DNA of 42,743 nucleotides from a virus, in the IMG/VR virus record IMGVR_UViG_3300048837_002248, positions 1 to 42,743 of that record, one strand, 5' to 3'. Each line of letters begins with the position of its first letter. Positions within the stretch are counted from its first letter, which is position 1. Shown piece by piece: positions 10,732 through 42,743 of this stretch. The notes under the pieces were generated by a model. The model was not told the DNA's origin, searched no databases, and was given only the letters and a program-made list of their open reading frames with translations. The position numbers and the translations under genes are program-made.

Positions 10732-13322
10732 GCGCCACGATGGTCGCCCCGCGCATCGACCTGCGCCGCACGTTGGGCCCGTTGGTGGTCGAGTGGATCG
10801 AGGCGAACCTGTGCCACGGCCCGGGAGACGTGCAGGGCCGCCCGGTGGAGTTGGACGACGAGCAGGTGCGGTTTCTGTGCGCCGCGTATGCGATCGACGA
10901 CGCTGGCCGGCGTGTCGTGAACCGGGCGGTGTACTCCCGCCCGAAGGGGCGCGCGAAGAGCGAGCTGGCGGCGATGATCGTGTGCGCGGAGGCCCTCGGC
11001 CCGGTGCGGTTCTCGCATTGGGATGACGACGGCTACCCGGTCGGCCGGCGCGTGCAGACGCCGATCATCGTGTGCGCCGCCACGGAGGGGGGCCAGGCCG
11101 ACAACACGTACGGCGCGGTGCACGTGATGCTCACGGAGGGCGCTGTCGCTGACACTCCGGGACTGGATGTGGGGTTGACGCGGACGTTCCTGCCGGGCGG
11201 AGGGAAGATCCATTCGATAAGTGCCCGCGCGTCGTCGAAGGATGGCGGCAAGGAGACGTTCGTCAACTTCGACGAGCCTCTGGCCCTGGACACGCCTGTT
11301 CCAACGCCTGGTGGCTGGGCGACGATGGGTGACCTGGTTGAAGGCGACCAGGTCATCGGCGTAGACGGATTGCCTGCCCGGGTGCTCGGTGTTTCTGAGG
11401 TCCACACGGGCAGACCCTGTTACCGGGTGACCTTCGCGGACGGGTCGAGCGTCGTCGCCGATGCTTCTCACCGATGGATGACGTGCGTCAGCGGATCGTC
11501 CGCACACCCGAGGGTACGTACGACAGAGGAGATCCGCACCGACGGTCGCCGCATCCGCGTTCCACTCCCGGAGCCGATTGATCTTCCCGAGGCGGATCTG
11601 CCGGTCGATCCGTACATCGTCGGGTACTTCTTGGCGAACGGATCACGGGGATCTAGCTATCTGACCGCGCACGACCAGGACGCCGACGAGGTTGTTGGTC
11701 TGCTTGCGCAAGCCGGCGCCGCTCTCGCGCGCCGCAACGGCCGCGACCGGGGACTGGCTGCGGGGATCACGATCGGTGCGCCGGGGTCAGGCAGGAAGGT
11801 CGGCTCGCTCCGGCAGTCTCTTCGCGAAATGGGCGTGCTGGATGAACGTCGCGTGCCCGTCGCCTACCTACGAGGATCGCTCGCCCAGCGGCACGCGCTC
11901 CTGTGCGGGCTGATGGACGCCGACGGGCACGCCCGCACCAAGACGGCATGGGTGGAGTTCGTCTCGGCCAGCCCGCTGTTGGCCGACGCGGTTGTGGAGC
12001 TCGTCAGGTCATTTGGGTGCGTCCCACGGCGCCGTCCGCGCAAAGACGGCACGGAGGTCGTGGGATGGGTCCCGCGCATCGAGCACGTCCCATTCCGCGT
12101 TGAACGGAAGCGGAAAGCCTGCATCGAGCGGCTAGAGGGAACTAGCCGCCGCGGGGAGTCACACGGGCGTCACTGGATTAGCGTCACCTCCGTCGAGCCG
12201 GTCGCGTCGGTCCCTGTGCGATGCATCGCGGTAGATAGCTCAGATCACCTGTTTCTCGCGGGCGAGGCGATGGTCGCAACGCACAACACGCACCTGTTCA
12301 TCTCCCCGGAGCTGCACAACCTCGCCGCGACGCTGCGCCGGAACCTCGCCAAGCGCCGCGAGGCGCAGGCCTGGTCGCTGGAGACCTCCACCATGTACGC
12401 GCCCGGGCAGAACTCGGTGGCGGAGTCCTCGCACCGGTTCGCGCGGGACATCGCCGCCGGGAAGACCCGCGACCCCGGGAACTTCCTGTTCGATCACATG
12501 GAGGGCCCGGACCCGAAGTCGATCGACTGGGACGACGACGACCAGCTGCGCTCGGCTCTGCGGATGGCGTACGGGGATGCCGCCGAGTGGATGGACCTGG
12601 AGCGGCTGATCGCCGATGCCCGCGACCCGTCGACGCGGCGCGCGGACTTCGTCCGGTACTTCCTGAACCGGCCGTCGCGTGACGAGGCGCTGCGGTGGGT
12701 GACCTCCGAGCAGTGGGATGCGCTGGCCATCGACGGCGCCCGGATCCCGGCCGGTGCGCGGATCGTCGCCGCGGTCGATGTCGGGATCTCCAATGACTCG
12801 ACCGCGGTGGTCATCGCCGGTGAGGGACCCGACGGGCGGGAGCTGCACGAGTGCCATGTGTGGGCGAGCCGGCGTGATGCGACCGCCCACCAGCATGTGG
12901 CGGGGCGGGTGCGGCTCGCGGAGATCGAGGACCACCTGCGGGACCTCGCGGGACGGTACGAGCTGCTGGGTGTCGCCTACGACAAGATGTTTTTCGAGGC
13001 GCCGGCGCAGACGTTGAGCGATGAGGGCTTGACGATGGTGGAGATCGTCCAGGGCTCGAAGGCGATGCGTGAAGCCGAGCAGGGCTGGTATCAGGCGGTC
13101 ACCGCGGACCGGTCGCTGGCACACAACGGTGACCCGGTGTTCGCGGCGCATGTCGCGGCGACCGTCGCAACGAAAACCGACCGCGGCTGGAAGCTCCGGA
13201 AGATGCGCTCGGAGGAGGGCGGTGTCGCTGCGAAGATCGACGCGACTGTCGCGTCGATCATGGCGATGGCTGTGTGGCGGGTCCTGTCGCGCCCGTCGAA
13301 GCGTTCGTGGAGGCCGGCCTGA
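10728..13322 (+). CDS. terL: Terminase large subunit with class 3 intein
   Basis: This is the DNA-packaging ATPase and nuclease of the phage, an 864-aa precursor that becomes 527 aa after splicing. The ATPase has an arginine-rich Walker A-like motif RPKGRAKS (residues 71-78) and Walker B VNFDE (Asp182, Glu183). An intein of 337 residues (184-520) follows Glu183 directly; the joined extein reads NFDE-THLF. The RNase H-like nuclease domain begins at VDVGISNDST (Asp684) with a further conserved acidic residue in AYDKMFFE. The C-terminus carries EGGVAAKIDATVASIMA, like the D-containing helix of other TerL nucleases. Because the catalytic Walker B is split from the next residues, packaging must await protein splicing. 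The start overlaps the TerS stop. Confidence 0.93.
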   Translation: MSATMVAPRIDLRRTLGPLVVEWIEANLCHGPGDVQGRPVELDDEQVRFLCAAYAIDDAGRRVVNRAVYSRPKGRAKSELAAMIVCAEALGPVRFSHWDDDGYPVGRRVQTPIIVCAATEGGQADNTYGAVHVMLTEGAVADTPGLDVGLTRTFLPGGGKIHSISARASSKDGGKETFVNFDEPLALDTPVPTPGGWATMGDLVEGDQVIGVDGLPARVLGVSEVHTGRPCYRVTFADGSSVVADASHRWMTCVSGSSAHPRVRTTEEIRTDGRRIRVPLPEPIDLPEADLPVDPYIVGYFLANGSRGSSYLTAHDQDADEVVGLLAQAGAALARRNGRDRGLAAGITIGAPGSGRKVGSLRQSLREMGVLDERRVPVAYLRGSLAQRHALLCGLMDADGHARTKTAWVEFVSASPLLADAVVELVRSFGCVPRRRPRKDGTEVVGWVPRIEHVPFRVERKRKACIERLEGTSRRGESHGRHWISVTSVEPVASVPVRCIAVDSSDHLFLAGEAMVATHNTHLFISPELHNLAATLRRNLAKRREAQAWSLETSTMYAPGQNSVAESSHRFARDIAAGKTRDPGNFLFDHMEGPDPKSIDWDDDDQLRSALRMAYGDAAEWMDLERLIADARDPSTRRADFVRYFLNRPSRDEALRWVTSEQWDALAIDGARIPAGARIVAAVDVGISNDSTAVVIAGEGPDGRELHECHVWASRRDATAHQHVAGRVRLAEIEDHLRDLAGRYELLGVAYDKMFFEAPAQTLSDEGLTMVEIVQGSKAMREAEQGWYQAVTADRSLAHNGDPVFAAHVAATVATKTDRGWKLRKMRSEEGGVAAKIDATVASIMAMAVWRVLSRPSKRSWRPA
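11277..12287 (+). other. Class 3 intein with LAGLIDADG domain inside terL
   Basis: The 337-aa insert begins with Pro (PLALDTPVPTPGG), not Cys or Ser, and ends in ATHN before extein Thr. It has the noncontiguous W-C-T signature known from class 3 inteins: Trp two residues after the block B His (SHRW), Cys in block F (VRCIAVD), and Thr just before the penultimate His (THN). Class 3 inteins start splicing with the block F Cys. LAGLIDADG motifs are YIVGYFLANGS and LLCGLMDADG; the first has Asn where the catalytic Asp is expected. The segment shows visibly less GC-biased codons than its exteins. Confidence 0.92.
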
Positions 13323-15808
13323 TGGCTGTCCTCGACCCGATCCGCCGCCTGCGGGCGATGTTCTTCTCCGGTGGGCGCACCGCGCCGTGGCAGGCGATCA
13401 TGATGCCGCGCAGCCAGGTCGACTTCCGGCGGGAGGTCGGCGACGGCATGGGCTCGGCGACGGTGATGGCGCCGCTGCTGTGGATCATGCGGTCGTTCCC
13501 GGAGGCGCCGCCGATCGTTCACCGCGTCCTCGACGACGGCCAGCTGCAGCACGCGGTCGGCCATCCGCTGGTGTCGCTGTTGCGCCGGCCGAACCGGCAC
13601 CTGTCGGGTTCGCTGCAGTGGATGGCGACGATGGCGAGCTTCTTCGTCGCCGGGAACGCCTACTGGATCAAGGTCCGCGACGCGCAGGGGCGTGTGGTGG
13701 AGCTGTGGTGGGCGCCGGACTGGACGATGACCCCCGTCGGCTCCGATGACGGCAGCGAGTTCCTCACCCACTACGAGTACCGGCCCGGCCCGCAGCGGGT
13801 GAACCTGCACCCGGACGATGTCGTGCACTTCCGCCACGGCCTCGACCCCCGCAACCCGCGCCTGGGCCTCTCCCCTCTCGCGTCGGTGCTGCGGGAGGTG
13901 TTCACCGACGACGAGGCCGCGAACTTCACCGCAGCGCTGCTGCGGAACATGGGCGTCCCGGGTCTCTTGGTCGCCCCGGAGCAGGGCGACTACTCGCCGT
14001 CCTCGGATGAGGTCGACGAGACCAAGACGTACATGCGTCAGATGTTCACCGGCGATCGCCGCGGCGAGCCGCTGGTGATGACCGGACCGACGAAGGTCAC
14101 CCAGTTCGGGTTCTCCCCCGAGCAGCTGAACCTGAAGGAGCTGCGCCGCATCCCGGAGGAGCGTGTGACCGCGGTGCTCGGCGTGCCGGCGATCGTCGCC
14201 GGGTTGGGTGCGGGCCTGGACCGTTCGACGTTCTGCCTCCCCGCGGATTCGCGTGTGTGGACGCTCGCCGGGCCGAAGCCGATCGCCGATGTGCGCGAAG
14301 GGGAGACCGTCTGGTCGTTTGACGACGGCGACCTAGTGCCCCGCCGTGTCCGGTATGCGGGCTGCACCGGCGAGAAGCCGCTGGTGGAGTTGCGCACCAA
14401 GAACCGTTCGATCCGCGCGAGCGCGAACCACCCGGTGCTCGTGCGTGTCCCCGGGTCGATGACGACCGGCGCGAACCATGAGCGGGCGCCACGCTACGAG
14501 TGGCGCCCAGCCGGTGAGGTCGCGGTCGGCGAGTACGTCACCCAGGTGAAGTCGCTGCCGGATCTCGGCGGCACGACCCTCCCCGACGGGTCACCAGCGA
14601 CCGTCGAGTTCCTCCAGTTCTGCGGCGCGGTGGTCGGCGACGGGACTGTGAGCCCCGGCGTGGGTGTGCGGATGGCGATGCCCCCAGAGGACCGATGCGT
14701 CGCGGCGTACCGCGGGATGGCGGAGAGCCTGTTCACCAAGCGCGGCGGCGGCGCGGTGGTCATGCAGGAACGGGAGCGCGACTTCGGGTTCTCATCCGCC
14801 GCGGCGTCCCGCATGCTCGGAGATCTCGGCTTCGCGTTGCGGGCCCGCACCAAGCGCGTCCCGGCATGGATCTGGGGGCTGTCGCGTGAACTGCGACTCG
14901 CGTTCCTCGCCGGCGTGGTGGACACCGACGGCCACATCGACAAGCGCGGCGCGTTGACGTTCTGGTTCGCCAGCGAGGCGCTGGTGCACGACCTGCGTGA
15001 CCTGATGCAGTCGGTCGGAATCCCGACGTGCCGCGTCGCCCACAAGCGGATCAGCAAGGACCGCCTGCCGAACCCCGGACGCCAAGACTTCTACGACGCG
15101 TGGGGGTTCACGGCATCGTCCGCGGACCTGGTCGCGCAGATCCCGTTCGTCGACCCCATGTACCGCGAGCGGGTGGAGGAGAACGCGGGCCGGTTCAAGC
15201 GGGAGGGCTTCGACGCCCACAAGGCGGGCCTCTCGGATGACCTCGGTTTCTTCATGGTGAAGGAGATCCGCCAGCTGCCCGCCGAGCCGATCTACGACCT
15301 GGAAATCGAGGAGAGCCACTCGTTCATCGCTGACGGCCTGGTCGTGCACAACACGAACACGGGTGAGGCCAGGGAGATGGCGTACGAGTCGTGCATCATC
15401 CCCGCGCAGCGGCTCATCGGGGAGGAGCTGCGCCACCAGCTCGCACCGGACTTCGAGCCGGATGTGGAGCGCGTCGAGGTCGGCTTCGACCTGACGAAGG
15501 TGCGCGTCCTCGCAGAGGACGAGGAGCGGATGGCGCGCCGCTGGGATCTCATGGTGAAGGGCGGCTGGGTGACCGTCGGCGAGGGCCGGCGCGCTGTCGG
15601 CCTGCCGGTCGATGAGACCCACGACGTGTTCCTGCGCCCGCTGAACACGACCGAGCTGGCGGCCGACCCGGCGAAGCGGCCGCCGCCGGCGCCCGGCGAC
15701 GAGCAGGTCCGCAAGCTGATGGCCGGCGTCCTCGCCTCGACACGCGAGCTTGACGACGCGCTCGCCGCCGGCACGTCTCGCAACGGCAACGGCCACGCGG
15801 CCGGATAA
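13322..15808 (+). CDS. Portal protein with class 1 intein
   Basis: This is an 828-aa precursor (455 aa mature) forming the dodecameric DNA channel of the capsid vertex. The HK97-type portal features are SLQWMATMASFFVAGNAYW, DVVHFRHGLDPRNPRLGLSPL, TDDEAANFTAALLRNMGVPG and the joined AGLDRSTF-TNTGEAREMAYE. A 373-aa intein occupies residues 305-677. The C-terminal tail is Pro/Ala-rich and ends in an Asn/Gly-rich stretch. The start at ATG 13322 overlaps the TerL stop. An in-frame ATG 48 nt upstream would lie inside terL and is rejected. Confidence 0.93.
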   Translation: MAVLDPIRRLRAMFFSGGRTAPWQAIMMPRSQVDFRREVGDGMGSATVMAPLLWIMRSFPEAPPIVHRVLDDGQLQHAVGHPLVSLLRRPNRHLSGSLQWMATMASFFVAGNAYWIKVRDAQGRVVELWWAPDWTMTPVGSDDGSEFLTHYEYRPGPQRVNLHPDDVVHFRHGLDPRNPRLGLSPLASVLREVFTDDEAANFTAALLRNMGVPGLLVAPEQGDYSPSSDEVDETKTYMRQMFTGDRRGEPLVMTGPTKVTQFGFSPEQLNLKELRRIPEERVTAVLGVPAIVAGLGAGLDRSTFCLPADSRVWTLAGPKPIADVREGETVWSFDDGDLVPRRVRYAGCTGEKPLVELRTKNRSIRASANHPVLVRVPGSMTTGANHERAPRYEWRPAGEVAVGEYVTQVKSLPDLGGTTLPDGSPATVEFLQFCGAVVGDGTVSPGVGVRMAMPPEDRCVAAYRGMAESLFTKRGGGAVVMQERERDFGFSSAAASRMLGDLGFALRARTKRVPAWIWGLSRELRLAFLAGVVDTDGHIDKRGALTFWFASEALVHDLRDLMQSVGIPTCRVAHKRISKDRLPNPGRQDFYDAWGFTASSADLVAQIPFVDPMYRERVEENAGRFKREGFDAHKAGLSDDLGFFMVKEIRQLPAEPIYDLEIEESHSFIADGLVVHNTNTGEAREMAYESCIIPAQRLIGEELRHQLAPDFEPDVERVEVGFDLTKVRVLAEDEERMARRWDLMVKGGWVTVGEGRRAVGLPVDETHDVFLRPLNTTELAADPAKRPPPAPGDEQVRKLMAGVLASTRELDDALAAGTSRNGNGHAAG
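14234..15352 (+). other. Class 1 intein with LAGLIDADG homing endonuclease in portal gene
   Basis: The insert starts with Cys (CLPADSRVWTLAGP) and ends with VVHN before extein Thr, which is a standard class 1 layout. Block B contains SANHPVLV with the conserved His. Block F is IYDLEIEESHSFIADG. The homing endonuclease carries FCGAVVGDGTV and FLAGVVDTDGHID, both with the catalytic Asp present, so it may still be active. Extein residues around the site are highly conserved in portals. Confidence 0.93.
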
Positions 15809-33026: not shown

Positions 33027-33283
33027 ACCCCGACCCGCAGTTCCGGGCCTGGTTCGACCGGATCAGGCCCGAACTGGAAGCCGCCCGCGATCAGCTTGCC
33101 GCCGAGCTCGCGGCGTTGCCGATCGACGCGGGCTTCCTGTGGGCGGCGTACACGAAGGCGCGTGTCGGCTGGGCGGAGCATGACGGCGGGATCGTGCACA
33201 TGAACGACGCGCAGCTCGCCCTGGAGGAACGCGGCGAGCTGCTGGACTTGGTCGTCTACCGGGCGGCGCGGCTCAGCGCGTAG
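33023..33283 (+). CDS. Hypothetical 86-aa protein at the end of the late operon
   Basis: This is a small helical protein (FDRIRPELEAARDQLAAELAALP, AQLALEERGELLDLVVYRAARL) starting at GTG 33023 with a GTGA overlap. It is the last rightward late gene and converges with leftward genes, overlapping by 28 nt at its 3' end. No conserved domain was recognised. Similar short proteins close the lysis cassette in other actinophages, but no function can be assigned. Confidence 0.6.
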   Translation: MNPDPQFRAWFDRIRPELEAARDQLAAELAALPIDAGFLWAAYTKARVGWAEHDGGIVHMNDAQLALEERGELLDLVVYRAARLSA

Positions 33284-33537
33284 ACCGTCTGCCTGGACAC
33301 GCCGGACAGGCGGGCGATCTCTGTGATCGCCAGCCCGGCGTCTCGGGCGGCCGGGAGCCACGCGGCCAGGTCGACCATCGCCTCCGCCCGGATCGACTCT
33401 CCCGCCTCGCGGCGCTGGCGGATGCCGTCCAGCGCGCCGACCACCGACTCCGGGTGGACCGGAACGCCCTCCTTCGGGCGTCCGGTCGGGTCGGCGTTCC
33501 GGGCGACCGCCGTGAGCTCATCCCGGATGGTGGTCAT
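33256..33537 (-). CDS. Small HTH protein, leftward operon
   Basis: This is a 93-aa protein. The C-terminal AGLAITEIARLSGVSRQTVYALSRAAR is a clear helix-turn-helix of the sigma/resolvase-like type. The N-terminus (IRDELTAVARNADPTG...SVVGALDGIRQRREAG) is helical and may mediate dimerisation. It is coupled by an ATGA overlap to the gene upstream on the same strand and is expressed from the promoter near 33870. Its place in the lysogeny block suggests a regulator. Confidence 0.72.
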   Translation of the reverse strand: MTTIRDELTAVARNADPTGRPKEGVPVHPESVVGALDGIRQRREAGESIRAEAMVDLAAWLPAARDAGLAITEIARLSGVSRQTVYALSRAAR

Positions 33538-33800
33538 GACGAGTAGAGCGCGCCGCGCTTGGCTGCCGCCGCGGTCGCGTATGGGCCGTGGACGCGAATC
33601 CGCATCGCCGCGATCGCGGAGCCAGCCTCGGAGCCGGTCCTCTGAATCCAGGCGCGGAGCGCTTTCCGCGCGGCGTCCTCGCCATGCCACGGGCCGACGG
33701 GCGGCGACGGCGCGTCGCCGTACAAGCCGAAGCGCTGAATGGTGAACCAGTCGTTGCTGCCAGACATCGCGATTTCGGTGGTAGCGTGGTCTGCGGTCAT
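33534..33800 (-). CDS. Hypothetical 88-aa protein, leftward operon
   Basis: This is a small protein of unknown family. A Trp/Phe-containing strand region (NDWFTIQRFGLYG) precedes a helix (EDAARKALRAWIQRTG) and a final segment with HGPYATAAAAKRGAL. The start at 33800 is preferred over the longer frame because an aggaggaacccc ribosome-binding site lies upstream. It is the first gene after the TTGACA-N18-TATGGT promoter and shares an operon with the HTH gene. It may act in lysogeny control, but nothing in the sequence proves this. Confidence 0.6.
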   Translation of the reverse strand: MTADHATTEIAMSGSNDWFTIQRFGLYGDAPSPPVGPWHGEDAARKALRAWIQRTGSEAGSAIAAMRIRVHGPYATAAAAKRGALYSS

Positions 33801-33855
33801 CAGGGGTTCCTCCTGGTGTCTCGTGGGGGCGGCCGTTGCGAGCGGCGCGCCCCCT

Positions 33856-33917
33856 CTCTCTGTGTCTAGGACCATACACGCTCGCCGGGAGTCGTGTCAA
33901 GCGCTAGACACAGAGAG
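33856..33917. promoter_or_regulatory. Paired CTAGACAC operator flanking the leftward promoter
   Basis: The 14-nt arms at 33856-33869 and 33904-33917 are perfect inverted repeats and place GTGTCTAG and CTAGACAC on either side of the promoter, 34 bp apart. The same half-site with an added G (CTAGGACAC) flanks the promoter of the Cro-like gene. One arm lies in the end of the neighbouring coding region. Confidence 0.7.
33871..33900 (-). promoter_or_regulatory. Leftward promoter TTGACA-N18-TATGGT
   Basis: On the minus strand, a consensus -35 TTGACA (33895-33900) and a -10 TATGGT (33871-33876) are 18 bp apart and would start transcription near 33864. The promoter lies within a perfect 14-bp inverted repeat (33856-33869 and 33904-33917) that carries the phage operator motif, which suggests repression by the phage repressor. 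Confidence 0.75.
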
Positions 33918-34236: not shown

Positions 34237-34644
34237 CTACGTGGTGCAAACCAGACTGATGGGCGTGCCCTCGATGAACCGCTTTGCCTCCGGGCACGGC
34301 CCGTAGACCGTGGAGTAGTCCGCCAAGTCGCCGACCGGCTCCGCGGCGCGCGTGTAGATGCCCGGCGCCCACTCGATCGCCTTGCGCGGGAACGGGGAGC
34401 CAGCCTGCATCTGCTCTATCGCCCACGCCGGGAGGCCTACTTGCGCGGTCGTCACGACACGCGGGAACGGCCCGGACGCCGGCTCAACAGGGCGGTTCTC
34501 GGCTGCGGGTGCGGGCTCGACCACTGTCTCTTCAATCACCTCAACCGTCTCAGTGACGGTGGCGGTGCGTTCTGCGCTGTTCCCGCTGCATCCGGCGGCG
34601 GCCATCACCGCGATGACGGCGAGCCCCGCTATCCATGCGCGCAT
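34237..34644 (-). CDS. Lipoprotein of the lysogeny region
   Basis: This is a 135-aa predicted lipoprotein. The signal peptide (residues 1-19) ends in a lipobox AAGC, so Cys19 would be lipidated on the outer face of the membrane. A Thr/Glu/Val-rich linker follows (TATVTETVEVIEETVVEPAPA), then a small domain with two cysteines (YGPCPEAKRF and SLVC). The start at 34644 is chosen for its ggagggg ribosome-binding site. Leftward expression next to the repressor suggests expression in the lysogen, for example for superinfection exclusion at the cell surface. Confidence 0.72.
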   Translation of the reverse strand: MRAWIAGLAVIAVMAAAGCSGNSAERTATVTETVEVIEETVVEPAPAAENRPVEPASGPFPRVVTTAQVGLPAWAIEQMQAGSPFPRKAIEWAPGIYTRAAEPVGDLADYSTVYGPCPEAKRFIEGTPISLVCTT

Positions 34645-34735: not shown

Positions 34736-34756
34736 CATAATCGAACGCCCGTTCGA
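34736..34756 (+). promoter_or_regulatory. Perfect SOS (LexA) box overlapping a -10 element
   Basis: TCGAACGCCCGTTCGA at 34741-34756 is an exact 16-bp palindrome of the form TCGAAC-N4-GTTCGA, the known actinobacterial/Gram-positive LexA consensus. A CATAAT -10 (34736-34741) abuts it, so LexA binding would cover the start site. No clear -35 is seen. The box lies 18 bp before ATG 34774, with a ggaggcgg ribosome-binding site in between. Confidence 0.85.
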
Positions 34757-34773
34757 CGGAGAGGGAGGCGGAG

Positions 34774-35037
34774 ATGGAGCAGGAAGCGACTGCCGGGCTC
34801 GCGAGCGACGACCAAGACGAGCGCCGCCGCGCCGCGCTCGGCATGCTCGGGCATGTGTGCGCGGCGCTCGCGGAGATCATCGGGCCCGGCGACCCGGCGT
34901 GCGAGCGTCTCCAGCGCGCCGCGGCTGACCTTCTCCCTCATCGCGAGCGAGGCCTTGAACCTCTCCCAAGCCCCGCGACTGCTTCGCGTCGGTCCACTCG
35001 CCTGAAGGACCGCCCGCTGATGCGGCGGGTGAAGTAG
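34774..35037 (+). CDS. SOS-box-driven 87-aa protein, antisense to repressor tail
   Basis: This small protein starts at ATG 34774 after a strong RBS and a consensus LexA box. The N-terminal part is acidic (DDQDERRRA), then helical (ALGMLGHVCAALAEII, CERLQRAAADLL), and the tail is basic (STRLKDRPLMRR). No family is recognised. Its last 161 nt are antisense to the 3' end of the XRE repressor gene, stopping close to where the repressor's HTH domain ends. Inference: on DNA damage it could act as an antirepressor, or its mRNA could impair repressor expression, causing induction. It is the only rightward gene inside the leftward lysogeny block. Confidence 0.65.
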   Translation: MEQEATAGLASDDQDERRRAALGMLGHVCAALAEIIGPGDPACERLQRAAADLLPHRERGLEPLPSPATASRRSTRLKDRPLMRRVK

Positions 35038-35242
35038 CCGGCTCGGAGAGCAAGTCGGCGACGCTCACCCCGAGACCGTCGGCGATACGGGCGAGGGTCT
35101 TGCGGGTCGGGTTGGTCTGGCGGTTCTTCACGCGCCGGAGCTGGCTGGGATCCATCTCGATGCGCTCGGCGAGCTGAAGGAGGCTCAACCCCTGCTGCTC
35201 CATGAGCTCGCCGATGCGTGCCCCATGAGTGGTTTCAGCCAT
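34877..35242 (-). CDS. XRE-family phage repressor
   Basis: This is a 121-aa protein. Residues 10-66 form an XRE/Cro-CI type HTH (RIGELMEQQGLSLLQLAERI, MDPSQLRRVKNRQTNPTRKTLARIADGLGVSVADLL). No peptidase (CI-type self-cleavage) domain is visible in the C-terminal 55 residues, which are Gly/Arg/Glu-rich and unstructured-looking. This fits repressors removed by an antirepressor rather than RecA-stimulated cleavage. ATG 35242 is preferred; GTG 35251 lies nine bases upstream. It is transcribed divergently from the Cro-like gene across a shared operator region and is the likely lysogeny master repressor. Confidence 0.75.
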   Translation of the reverse strand: MAETTHGARIGELMEQQGLSLLQLAERIEMDPSQLRRVKNRQTNPTRKTLARIADGLGVSVADLLSEPATSPAASAGGPSGEWTDAKQSRGLGEVQGLARDEGEGQPRRAGDARTPGRRAR

Positions 35243-35261
35243 GTCTAGCACGGTCTCACAC

Positions 35262-35329
35262 GTCCTAGGGCAGCGCTAGGACACAGAAGTACGCCGGACC
35301 TCTTGACCCTAGGTATTAGGTGTCCTAGG
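35262..35329. promoter_or_regulatory. Operator cluster between repressor and Cro-like gene
   Basis: Several related half-sites occur: GTCCTAG (35262-35268), CTAGGACAC (35276-35284) and GTGTCCTAG (35320-35328), with CCTAGG palindromes at 35309-35314 and 35324-35329. A further TGTCTAG overlaps the repressor start (35242-35248). The CTAGGACAC/GTGTCCTAG pair is spaced 35 bp apart and brackets the -35 of the Cro-like gene's promoter, as in the other operator at 33856-33917. Confidence 0.72.
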
Positions 35330-35331
35330 AT
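35303..35331 (+). promoter_or_regulatory. Rightward early promoter TTGACC-N17-TAGGAT (leaderless)
   Basis: A -35 TTGACC (35303-35308) and a -10 TAGGAT (35326-35331) with 17-bp spacing precede ATG 35338 by six bases. Transcription would start at or near the A of the ATG, so the mRNA is probably leaderless, and no ribosome-binding site is present. The -10 overlaps the operator half-site at 35320-35328. Confidence 0.75.
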
Positions 35332-35337
35332 GCGCGC

Positions 35338-35628
35338 ATGTTGAACGGCGAGAAGGTCAAAACGCTCCGCAAGCAGGCCGGCTACTCGGCCGCAACACTC
35401 GGAGCCAGGGTCGGGGTCACCGGCCGACAGATCCGCCGCTACGAGGCAGAGGCCAGCCAGCCAAGCGTGGGTGTCGCCCAGCGGATCGCTGAGGCGGTCG
35501 GCGTCCCTGTCTCCCATCTGCTCCATGTCCCGGAGGCTGCCATGCCTTCCACGGGCCGTGGAGAAACCCACGCCGACCGAACCGCTGCTGTGGAAGGCAG
35601 CCCGGTCGGCGCTCACCAAGGAGTGTAG
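35338..35628 (+). CDS. Cro-like XRE regulator
   Basis: This is a 96-aa protein with an XRE HTH (residues 5-60: KVKTLRKQAGYSAATLGARVGVTGRQIRRYEAEASQPSVGVAQRIAEAVGVPVSHLL). The C-terminal third is Gly/Thr/Glu-rich and disordered. It opens the rightward early operon and faces the repressor gene, as Cro does in lambda-like switches. The transcript is probably leaderless. Confidence 0.8.
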   Translation: MLNGEKVKTLRKQAGYSAATLGARVGVTGRQIRRYEAEASQPSVGVAQRIAEAVGVPVSHLLHVPEAAMPSTGRGETHADRTAAVEGSPVGAHQGV

Positions 35629-41532: not shown

Positions 41533-42743
41533 GCCCCTCATCGAACATCCGCGCCCGCCTCACCAAGACGCGGGGCACCACCTACCAGGTCCGCTACCGC
41601 CCCGGCGGCCGCGAGACCGACTGGGTCAGCGTCGGCACGTTCACGACGATGAAGGAGGCCCGCGCCTGCAAGCAGTGGGCCGACGGTGAGATCGCCGCCG
41701 GCCGCCGGCCGAACCTGCGCGCCCACCTCGCCGCCCAAGAGCCGACGACCGTCGGACGGATCGTCGCCGACTACGGCCGCACCCAGACCGAGGCCGCCCA
41801 AGCGAAACGCCAGCGGAACATGGTGAAGCGGCTCGGCCGGCTCGCGCACATGCCCGCCGACGAGGTCACCGGGCGCGACATCCAAGCGTGGATCGACCGC
41901 CAAGCGGCCGGTGAGCGGCCCCTGGCGGCGTCGAGCATCAGCCAGTACCTCGGCCAGCTGCGCCGCGCGTTCGCGTGGTTCGAGATCACCCCGAACCCGT
42001 GCGACTGGGCGCACCTGCGCATCCCCCGCCCCGAGCGCACCGACGACGACACCCATGCCGTCGACCCGCCCGAGCTCGCCGACGTGCAGGCGATGATCGC
42101 GTGCGTCACCCCCGCCGCCCATCGCCGCGTCGTGATCCTGGTGGAGGGCACCGGGATGCGGATCTCGGAGGCCCTGCGCCTCACGTGGGGCGACATCGAC
42201 TGGCGCCGCCAGCGCATCCGTGTCCCCGGCACGAAGACCGGCGCGGCACGCCGCTGGGTGCCCCTATGGGGCGACGCCCAGGCGATGCTGCAGATGACCC
42301 CCGTCGAAGACCGCGTCGCGACCCAGCGAATCTTCCCGGGGTCCACCGACAACGCCGTCAGGAACGCGATGGCGCGCGCGTGCAAGGCCGCCGGTGTCCG
42401 TCACCTGCACCCGCATGATCTGCGTGACCGGTGGATCAGCCTGTGCGGGCTCGCCGGTGTGCCGCTGCCGTTGATCCGGGAGATGGCGGGGCATCGCGAC
42501 AACACGACGACCCTCGACATCTACACGGGCCTCATCGTCGCCGAGCCGGCCGAGCGTCTCGCGGCGCTCCGTGACGCGGTCGCGGCGATGAGTGGCCTGA
42601 GCGGTGGGACCCCCGTGGGACCTGACACGCCTGCGCGTCCCACGGATTCCGTTGATAGCAGGGCGAACCTGCGAAGTGGAGGATACCGGGATCGAACCGG
42701 TGACCTCTACGCTGCCAGCGTAGCGCTCTCCCAGCTGAGCTAA
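41529..42743 (+). CDS. int: Tyrosine integrase running through attR
   Basis: This is a 404-aa site-specific recombinase in the integrated frame. The N-terminal AP2-like arm-binding region (TTYQVRYRPGG, VSVGTFTTMKEARACKQW) and SAM-like core domain (residues 75-150) are followed by the catalytic domain. Catalytic residues seen are Arg in GTGMRISEAL, Lys in PGTKTGAA, His and Arg in HPHDLRDRW, His in EMAGHRDN and Tyr in LDIYTG. The start at 41529 overlaps the Xis stop. The last 24 codons cross the att core and the antisense of tRNA-Ala, ending in a TAA at the window edge. In the circular phage the same frame would read from the core into 2873-2955 and end at TGA 2953-2955 with a different tail. 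Confidence 0.92.
   Translation: MSPSSNIRARLTKTRGTTYQVRYRPGGRETDWVSVGTFTTMKEARACKQWADGEIAAGRRPNLRAHLAAQEPTTVGRIVADYGRTQTEAAQAKRQRNMVKRLGRLAHMPADEVTGRDIQAWIDRQAAGERPLAASSISQYLGQLRRAFAWFEITPNPCDWAHLRIPRPERTDDDTHAVDPPELADVQAMIACVTPAAHRRVVILVEGTGMRISEALRLTWGDIDWRRQRIRVPGTKTGAARRWVPLWGDAQAMLQMTPVEDRVATQRIFPGSTDNAVRNAMARACKAAGVRHLHPHDLRDRWISLCGLAGVPLPLIREMAGHRDNTTTLDIYTGLIVAEPAERLAALRDAVAAMSGLSGGTPVGPDTPARPTDSVDSRANLRSGGYRDRTGDLYAASVALSQLS
42673..42696. repeat. attR core (24-bp direct repeat)
   Basis: Identical to 2849-2872; it overlaps the tRNA-Ala 3' end (acceptor 3' strand and part of the T-arm) and the integrase coding sequence. It reconstitutes the 3' part of the tRNA after integration. Confidence 0.93.
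42677..42743 (-). tRNA. tRNA-Ala (GGC), 5' end cut by the window
   Basis: Read on the minus strand, the sequence gives a D-arm starting TTAGCTC, an anticodon stem-loop CTACG-CTGGCAG-CGTAG with anticodon GGC, a T-arm with the TTCGATC loop, the acceptor 3' strand ATCCTCC and discriminator A at 42677. CCA is not encoded. About six 5' acceptor bases lie beyond the window. The gene is the attachment site of the prophage and stays functional because the core restores its 3' end. Confidence 0.93.

Follow-up and report, generated by a model that had tools for sequence, protein, structure and literature searches.

In the Gifsy prophages, the repressors of which remain uncleaved, induction is lost when LexA is made non-cleavable, and the repressors are bound by small antirepressors under LexA control (PMC3121763), while the Tum protein of phage 186 and AntC of phage N15 are cited as earlier LexA-controlled antirepressors (PMC3121763). 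Host LexA also helps prophage quiescence in Bacillus phage GIL01 (with gp7) and in CTXphi (with RstR), where, according to PMC4551915 and PMC3121763, it acts together with phage proteins at the phage's own lysogeny promoters.

In the current work, a stretch of 42,743 nucleotides (named the window; IMG/VR record IMGVR_UViG_3300048837_002248) was analysed; it represents a temperate, high-GC phage, the host of which is probably actinobacterial to judge from the GC content (70.6%) and the type of LexA box. To our knowledge, the DNA-damage induction of actinobacterial prophages without self-cleaving repressors seems little described. The 3' end of the integrase gene overlaps a tRNA-like sequence (42677-42743; Rfam tRNA, its 5' end being cut by the window edge), as expected of an attachment site; a scan of genome contigs for the integrase was negative. 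Furthermore, a 6.8-kb metagenome contig (L002, IMGVR_UViG_3300048836_000430) encodes a protein that is 100% identical to that of window positions 13274-15805, so that more than one record contains this phage or one very closely related to it.

The locus of interest is a small open reading frame (ORF) of the immunity region, which we read, with moderate confidence, as a gene repressed by host LexA whose product most likely disables a non-cleavable XRE repressor, thereby inducing the prophage. Such a gene would resemble GfoA/GftA of Salmonella Gifsy-1/2/3, in which a LexA-controlled small protein, an uncleaved repressor and SOS induction are combined (PMC3121763), a combination that is predicted here. 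The LexA-controlled unit of Gifsy is located outside the immunity region, in the dinI operon (PMC3121763), whereas that of the window is located inside it and is convergent with the repressor; the ORF is set apart from GfoA/GftA by this location and by the absence of a Pfam or PHROG match. Tum of coliphage 186 (with relatives in Fels-2/PSP3) is likewise a LexA-controlled protein disabling an uncleaved repressor, the activity predicted for the ORF product, but Tum is longer (146 aa) and one half of it is DinI-like (PMC3121763), whereas the ORF specifies 87 aa, about 54 of which appear structured, and returned no DinI match. AntC of N15, cited beside Tum as a LexA-controlled antirepressor (PMC3121763), is a further counterpart. 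In contrast to GIL01 and CTXphi, the predicted target of LexA in the window is a small gene of its own. What would be new relative to the known LexA-controlled antirepressors, as judged from the sequence, is the position within the immunity region, in which the gene runs towards that of the repressor, together with the recurrence of this arrangement.

The LexA box, the small ORF and the repressor

Positions 34741-34756 of the window constitute a LexA box, TCGAACGCCCGTTCGA, an exact palindrome of the form TCGAAC-N4-GTTCGA (0 mismatches). This is the only exact match in the 42,743 b of the window, while none was obtained in any of 100 dinucleotide-preserving shuffles. The LexA of Streptomyces venezuelae binds tCGAAC-N4-GNNCGa, with several prophage genes among its most-induced targets (PMC9380542), which makes such a box credible in a high-GC phage. 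The last T of the -10 hexamer CATAAT (34736-34741, + strand) is at the same time the first base of the box, and a transcription start near 34748 would therefore be located inside the operator, to which LexA is predicted to bind. A Shine-Dalgarno sequence, GGGAGG (34763-34768, + strand), is present 5 nt upstream of the ATG at 34774, from which the ORF of 87 codons extends to 35037 on the + strand. No CTAG operator-like site was found at this SOS promoter when the CTAG sites of the window were mapped, and this absence of phage operators suggests control by LexA alone.

The first part of the ORF resembles a gene. Scored with a model built from the genes of this phage, codons 1-48 reach 0.38 bits/codon, close to the median of true in-frame windows and matched by 2% of off-frame open windows, while codons 55-87 score -0.33 bits/codon. 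The AlphaFold2 model has block pLDDT values of 83-90 across residues 11-50 and a disordered tail, as obtained with single-sequence input, for which Ala-rich helices readily receive confident predictions. Codon usage and the single-sequence model thus support a real protein over residues 1 to about 54 (34774-34935, + strand), with helices at 7-36 and 41-53, whereas the tail of 34 aa, which makes up the bulk of the antisense part, looks non-coding and disordered in the same analyses. A frameshift near 34920, which may link the ORF to frame +2, was considered.

The ORF is without database relatives. A comparison with Pfam and PHROGs returned 0 families at E <= 1, hence no match to a known antirepressor family, and tblastn against phage records returned 0 records. 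Homologues of the ORF were not found in phage records, viral contigs or genome contigs, and exact-peptide scans of the viral and genome contigs for homologues of the ORF or of the repressor were equally negative. In blastn/tblastn searches of phage records the ORF was unmatched, generic XRE domains alone being returned, and Foldseek of the ORF model against the PDB yielded no match at E <= 0.001, the weaker hits being generic helical hairpins only. A weak match in the record of locus L046 (E=1.3e-4 for the one genome, E=0.003 against all loci) was gapped and placed within a 351-aa frame, and was judged to be due to chance.

The ORF faces an XRE repressor gene on the opposite strand. The repressor ORF spans 34877-35251 (- strand) with a likely start at the ATG at 35242 (34877-35242), and an HTH_3 domain was assigned by Pfam to its residues 12-64 (E=1e-11). 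Residues 1-66, the HTH part, score 0.41, while residues 67-121, a C-terminal tail without coding signal, score -0.18. The two genes converge in a 3' overlap of 161 nt (34877-35037) that ends about 8 nt before the HTH domain of the repressor. Because coding scores are high there, the first parts of both ORF and repressor look real; their crossing tails exhibit little coding signal on either strand. Peptidase_S24 (PF00717) is absent from the whole window, and the repressor, being HTH only by Pfam, thus does not qualify as a CI/LexA-type self-cleaving protein. Two properties of LexA-controlled prophage antirepressors as a functional class are therefore found at this locus: an exact box that shares a base with the -10 hexamer, and a repressor in which Pfam detects no RecA-stimulated self-cleavage domain. 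The earlier note had described a perfect LexA box overlapping CATAAT, an 87-aa ORF behind it, a 161-nt antisense overlap with the repressor tail, a stop near the end of the HTH domain and a repressor devoid of a visible self-cleavage domain, all of which were confirmed.

Operator-like sites of the immunity region

Divergent from the repressor gene, a second, Cro-like XRE protein is encoded at 35338-35628 (+ strand; HTH_3, E=4.9e-11). The region preceding it harbours operator-like CTAG palindromes (35262-35330), namely GTCCTAGGGCAGCGCTAGGAC at 35262-35282, CCTAGG at 35308 and GTGTCCTAGGA at 35320-35330, as well as a promoter-like sequence, TTGACC-17-TAGGAT (35303-35331, + strand), which was retrieved by a promoter scan and is a candidate for the early lytic promoter. 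A second operator-like pair, GTGTCTAG...CTAGACAC, is located around a leftward promoter of sequence TTGACA-18-TATGGT (33862-33911); its CTAG pair (33871-33900) flanks this promoter and resembles the sites between the repressor and the second XRE gene. Since CTAG occurs in only 16 places in the window, the intergenic sites and those at the leftward promoter are good operator candidates.

The earlier note had placed the ORF inside a leftward lysogeny block. Leftward genes are indeed present, yet those at 33256-33875 are located downstream of the operator-flanked promoter, so that not all of the block is necessarily lysogenic, and the part at 33875-33256 is probably repressed in the lysogen, to judge from these sites.

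Recurrence of the arrangement in other phage contigs

As homologues of the ORF were not found, the promoter register alone was used to search IMG/VR viral contigs, which were scanned for a -10 whose last T opens a perfect LexA box, repressors not being a criterion. Among the matches listed, the high-GC phage contigs L061, L063 and L122/L159 (the latter two being identical across the module) contain the box, a small ORF, a convergent XRE gene and a divergent second XRE gene, while L066 contains the box and a convergent XRE gene without a convincing small ORF. The relatives found with TANNNT in the -10/box register of the window have TAGTAT. Among the matches listed for contigs with a GC content of at least 0.6, a convergent XRE gene 20-300 bp away was present for 4 of 22 boxes where 0.22 was expected, the latter being the mean of random box placement in the same contigs and the range having been chosen after the cases had been seen. 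Peptidase_S24 was absent from the records of L061, L063, L122, L159 and L066.

The small ORFs of L061, L063 and L122 are 53-56 aa long, begin with MGQ and start at +75/+76, and their overlap with the XRE gene is 27 nt (L061), 81 nt (L063) or 30 nt (L122). Between L061 and L122, the small proteins share 50% identity (z = 11); differences between their ORFs are distributed as 18/21/29 over codon positions 1/2/3, and 16 of the 25 identical residues are encoded by different codons, which amounts to conservation at the protein level. A model of the L122 protein, based on an alignment of three sequences, is all helical with a mean pLDDT of 73. Alignment of the window ORF with the MGQ-type ORFs of L061/L122 gave no detectable similarity (z 0.3 to 1.1), and what the window ORF has in common with the small ORFs of its relatives is limited to the layout and the helical models. 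The leader of L063 resembles that of L061/L122 (74% over 99 nt), and L061 is a homologue of L122, so that these recurrences cannot count as fully independent. No match was obtained by blastn for the module of L063 against phages or for that of L122 against plasmids, and no exact LexA box was found in the immunity regions of the actinophages Thermobifida P1312, Rhodococcus ReT1v-1 and Streptomyces mu1/6.

Predicted induction route and competing explanations

The ORF could be incidental, with antisense RNA or convergent transcription from the SOS promoter silencing the repressor, and read-through supplying the lytic operon. The promoter faces the repressor gene and then the early operon, across a 161-nt overlap and without any + strand terminator-like site from the SOS promoter (34741) to the second XRE gene (35338), although the terminator scan covers intrinsic sites only; moreover, the convergent layout is found in all relatives, including L066 with its box and convergent XRE gene but no convincing ORF. 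Nevertheless, in L061/L122 the overlap amounts to just 27-30 nt while the ORF is conserved as a protein, and codons 1-48 of the window ORF are coding-like and preceded by a good ribosome site, for which reasons we deem this explanation unlikely. The earlier note had left the choice between an antirepressor and an antisense transcript undecided; a protein is now favoured, as codon usage is normal in the N-terminal ~50 codons and the equivalent ORF of L061 and L122 is conserved as a protein, and antisense is ranked second because coding signal is weakest in the antisense part and the overlap is short in relatives. Antisense RNA or interference may act as an accessory.

Somewhat less probable again is an SOS-induced protein with another job (a cell division block, RecA/LexA modulation or prophage cargo) placed beside the repressor by chance. 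Elsewhere in phage contigs, LexA boxes are followed by many small genes that are unrelated, and no fold or family match indicates repressor binding; against this, the repressor-facing position recurs among different neighbours above random placement. It is very improbable that the box is non-functional or serves the leftward genes, these being a lipoprotein gene (34237-34644) and that of a zinc-ribbon protein. A symmetric palindrome and a lipoprotein start about 95 nt to its left speak for such a role, but a leftward register lacks a -10-like hexamer while CATAAT fits the rightward one, an exact box is found where 0 are expected, and the rightward register recurs in relatives.

According to the favoured reading of a LexA-repressed antirepressor gene, LexA would occupy the box covering the start site during lysogeny, keeping the ORF off, while the XRE repressor would block the early lytic promoter (35303-35331) by means of the CTAG operators. 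Upon DNA damage, RecA would trigger the self-cleavage of LexA, whereupon the small helical protein would be made as part of the predicted SOS induction; this protein would most likely bind and disable the uncleavable XRE repressor, allowing lytic growth, and rightward transcription into the repressor gene may help by collision with repressor transcription. The antirepressor activity and the contact with the repressor are predictions. A perfect box, a window devoid of S24 and a cassette that recurs support the suggestion of the earlier note that host LexA controls an induction product beside a repressor without a cleavage domain, and because the layout recurs in other phages this is probably how DNA damage wakes prophages with uncleavable repressors.

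More tentatively, and with considerable doubt, the LexA box, the small protein, the convergent repressor that cannot be cleaved and the divergent Cro-like gene may together form a mobile cassette for the induction of temperate phages of high GC content, probably actinobacterial ones, in which an SOS promoter drives a fast-evolving antirepressor as well as transcription against the repressor and into the lytic operon. The cassette provides a specific, testable answer, with short and defined parts, to the question of how prophages with uncleavable repressors are induced. If true, prophages that are SOS-inducible could be recognised in high-GC genomes by a LexA box that faces a small XRE gene, while the small ORFs of the cassette would represent a set of candidate antirepressors.

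Two further arrangements were observed around LexA boxes. In many high-GC phage contigs an ATG is located within the box (..CATGTTCGA), about 8 nt past the -10, as in L051, L057, L053, L046, L082 and L154, whose ORFs start with MFDK, MFDD, MFEK etc.; from their sequence, these could be leaderless SOS-controlled mRNAs. In L014 and L024 (GC 69%, from one metagenome), CATAAT-LexA boxes precede similar short ORFs containing WYVLVPDLD and FYVLVPDFE, possibly a second family of SOS-controlled small genes.
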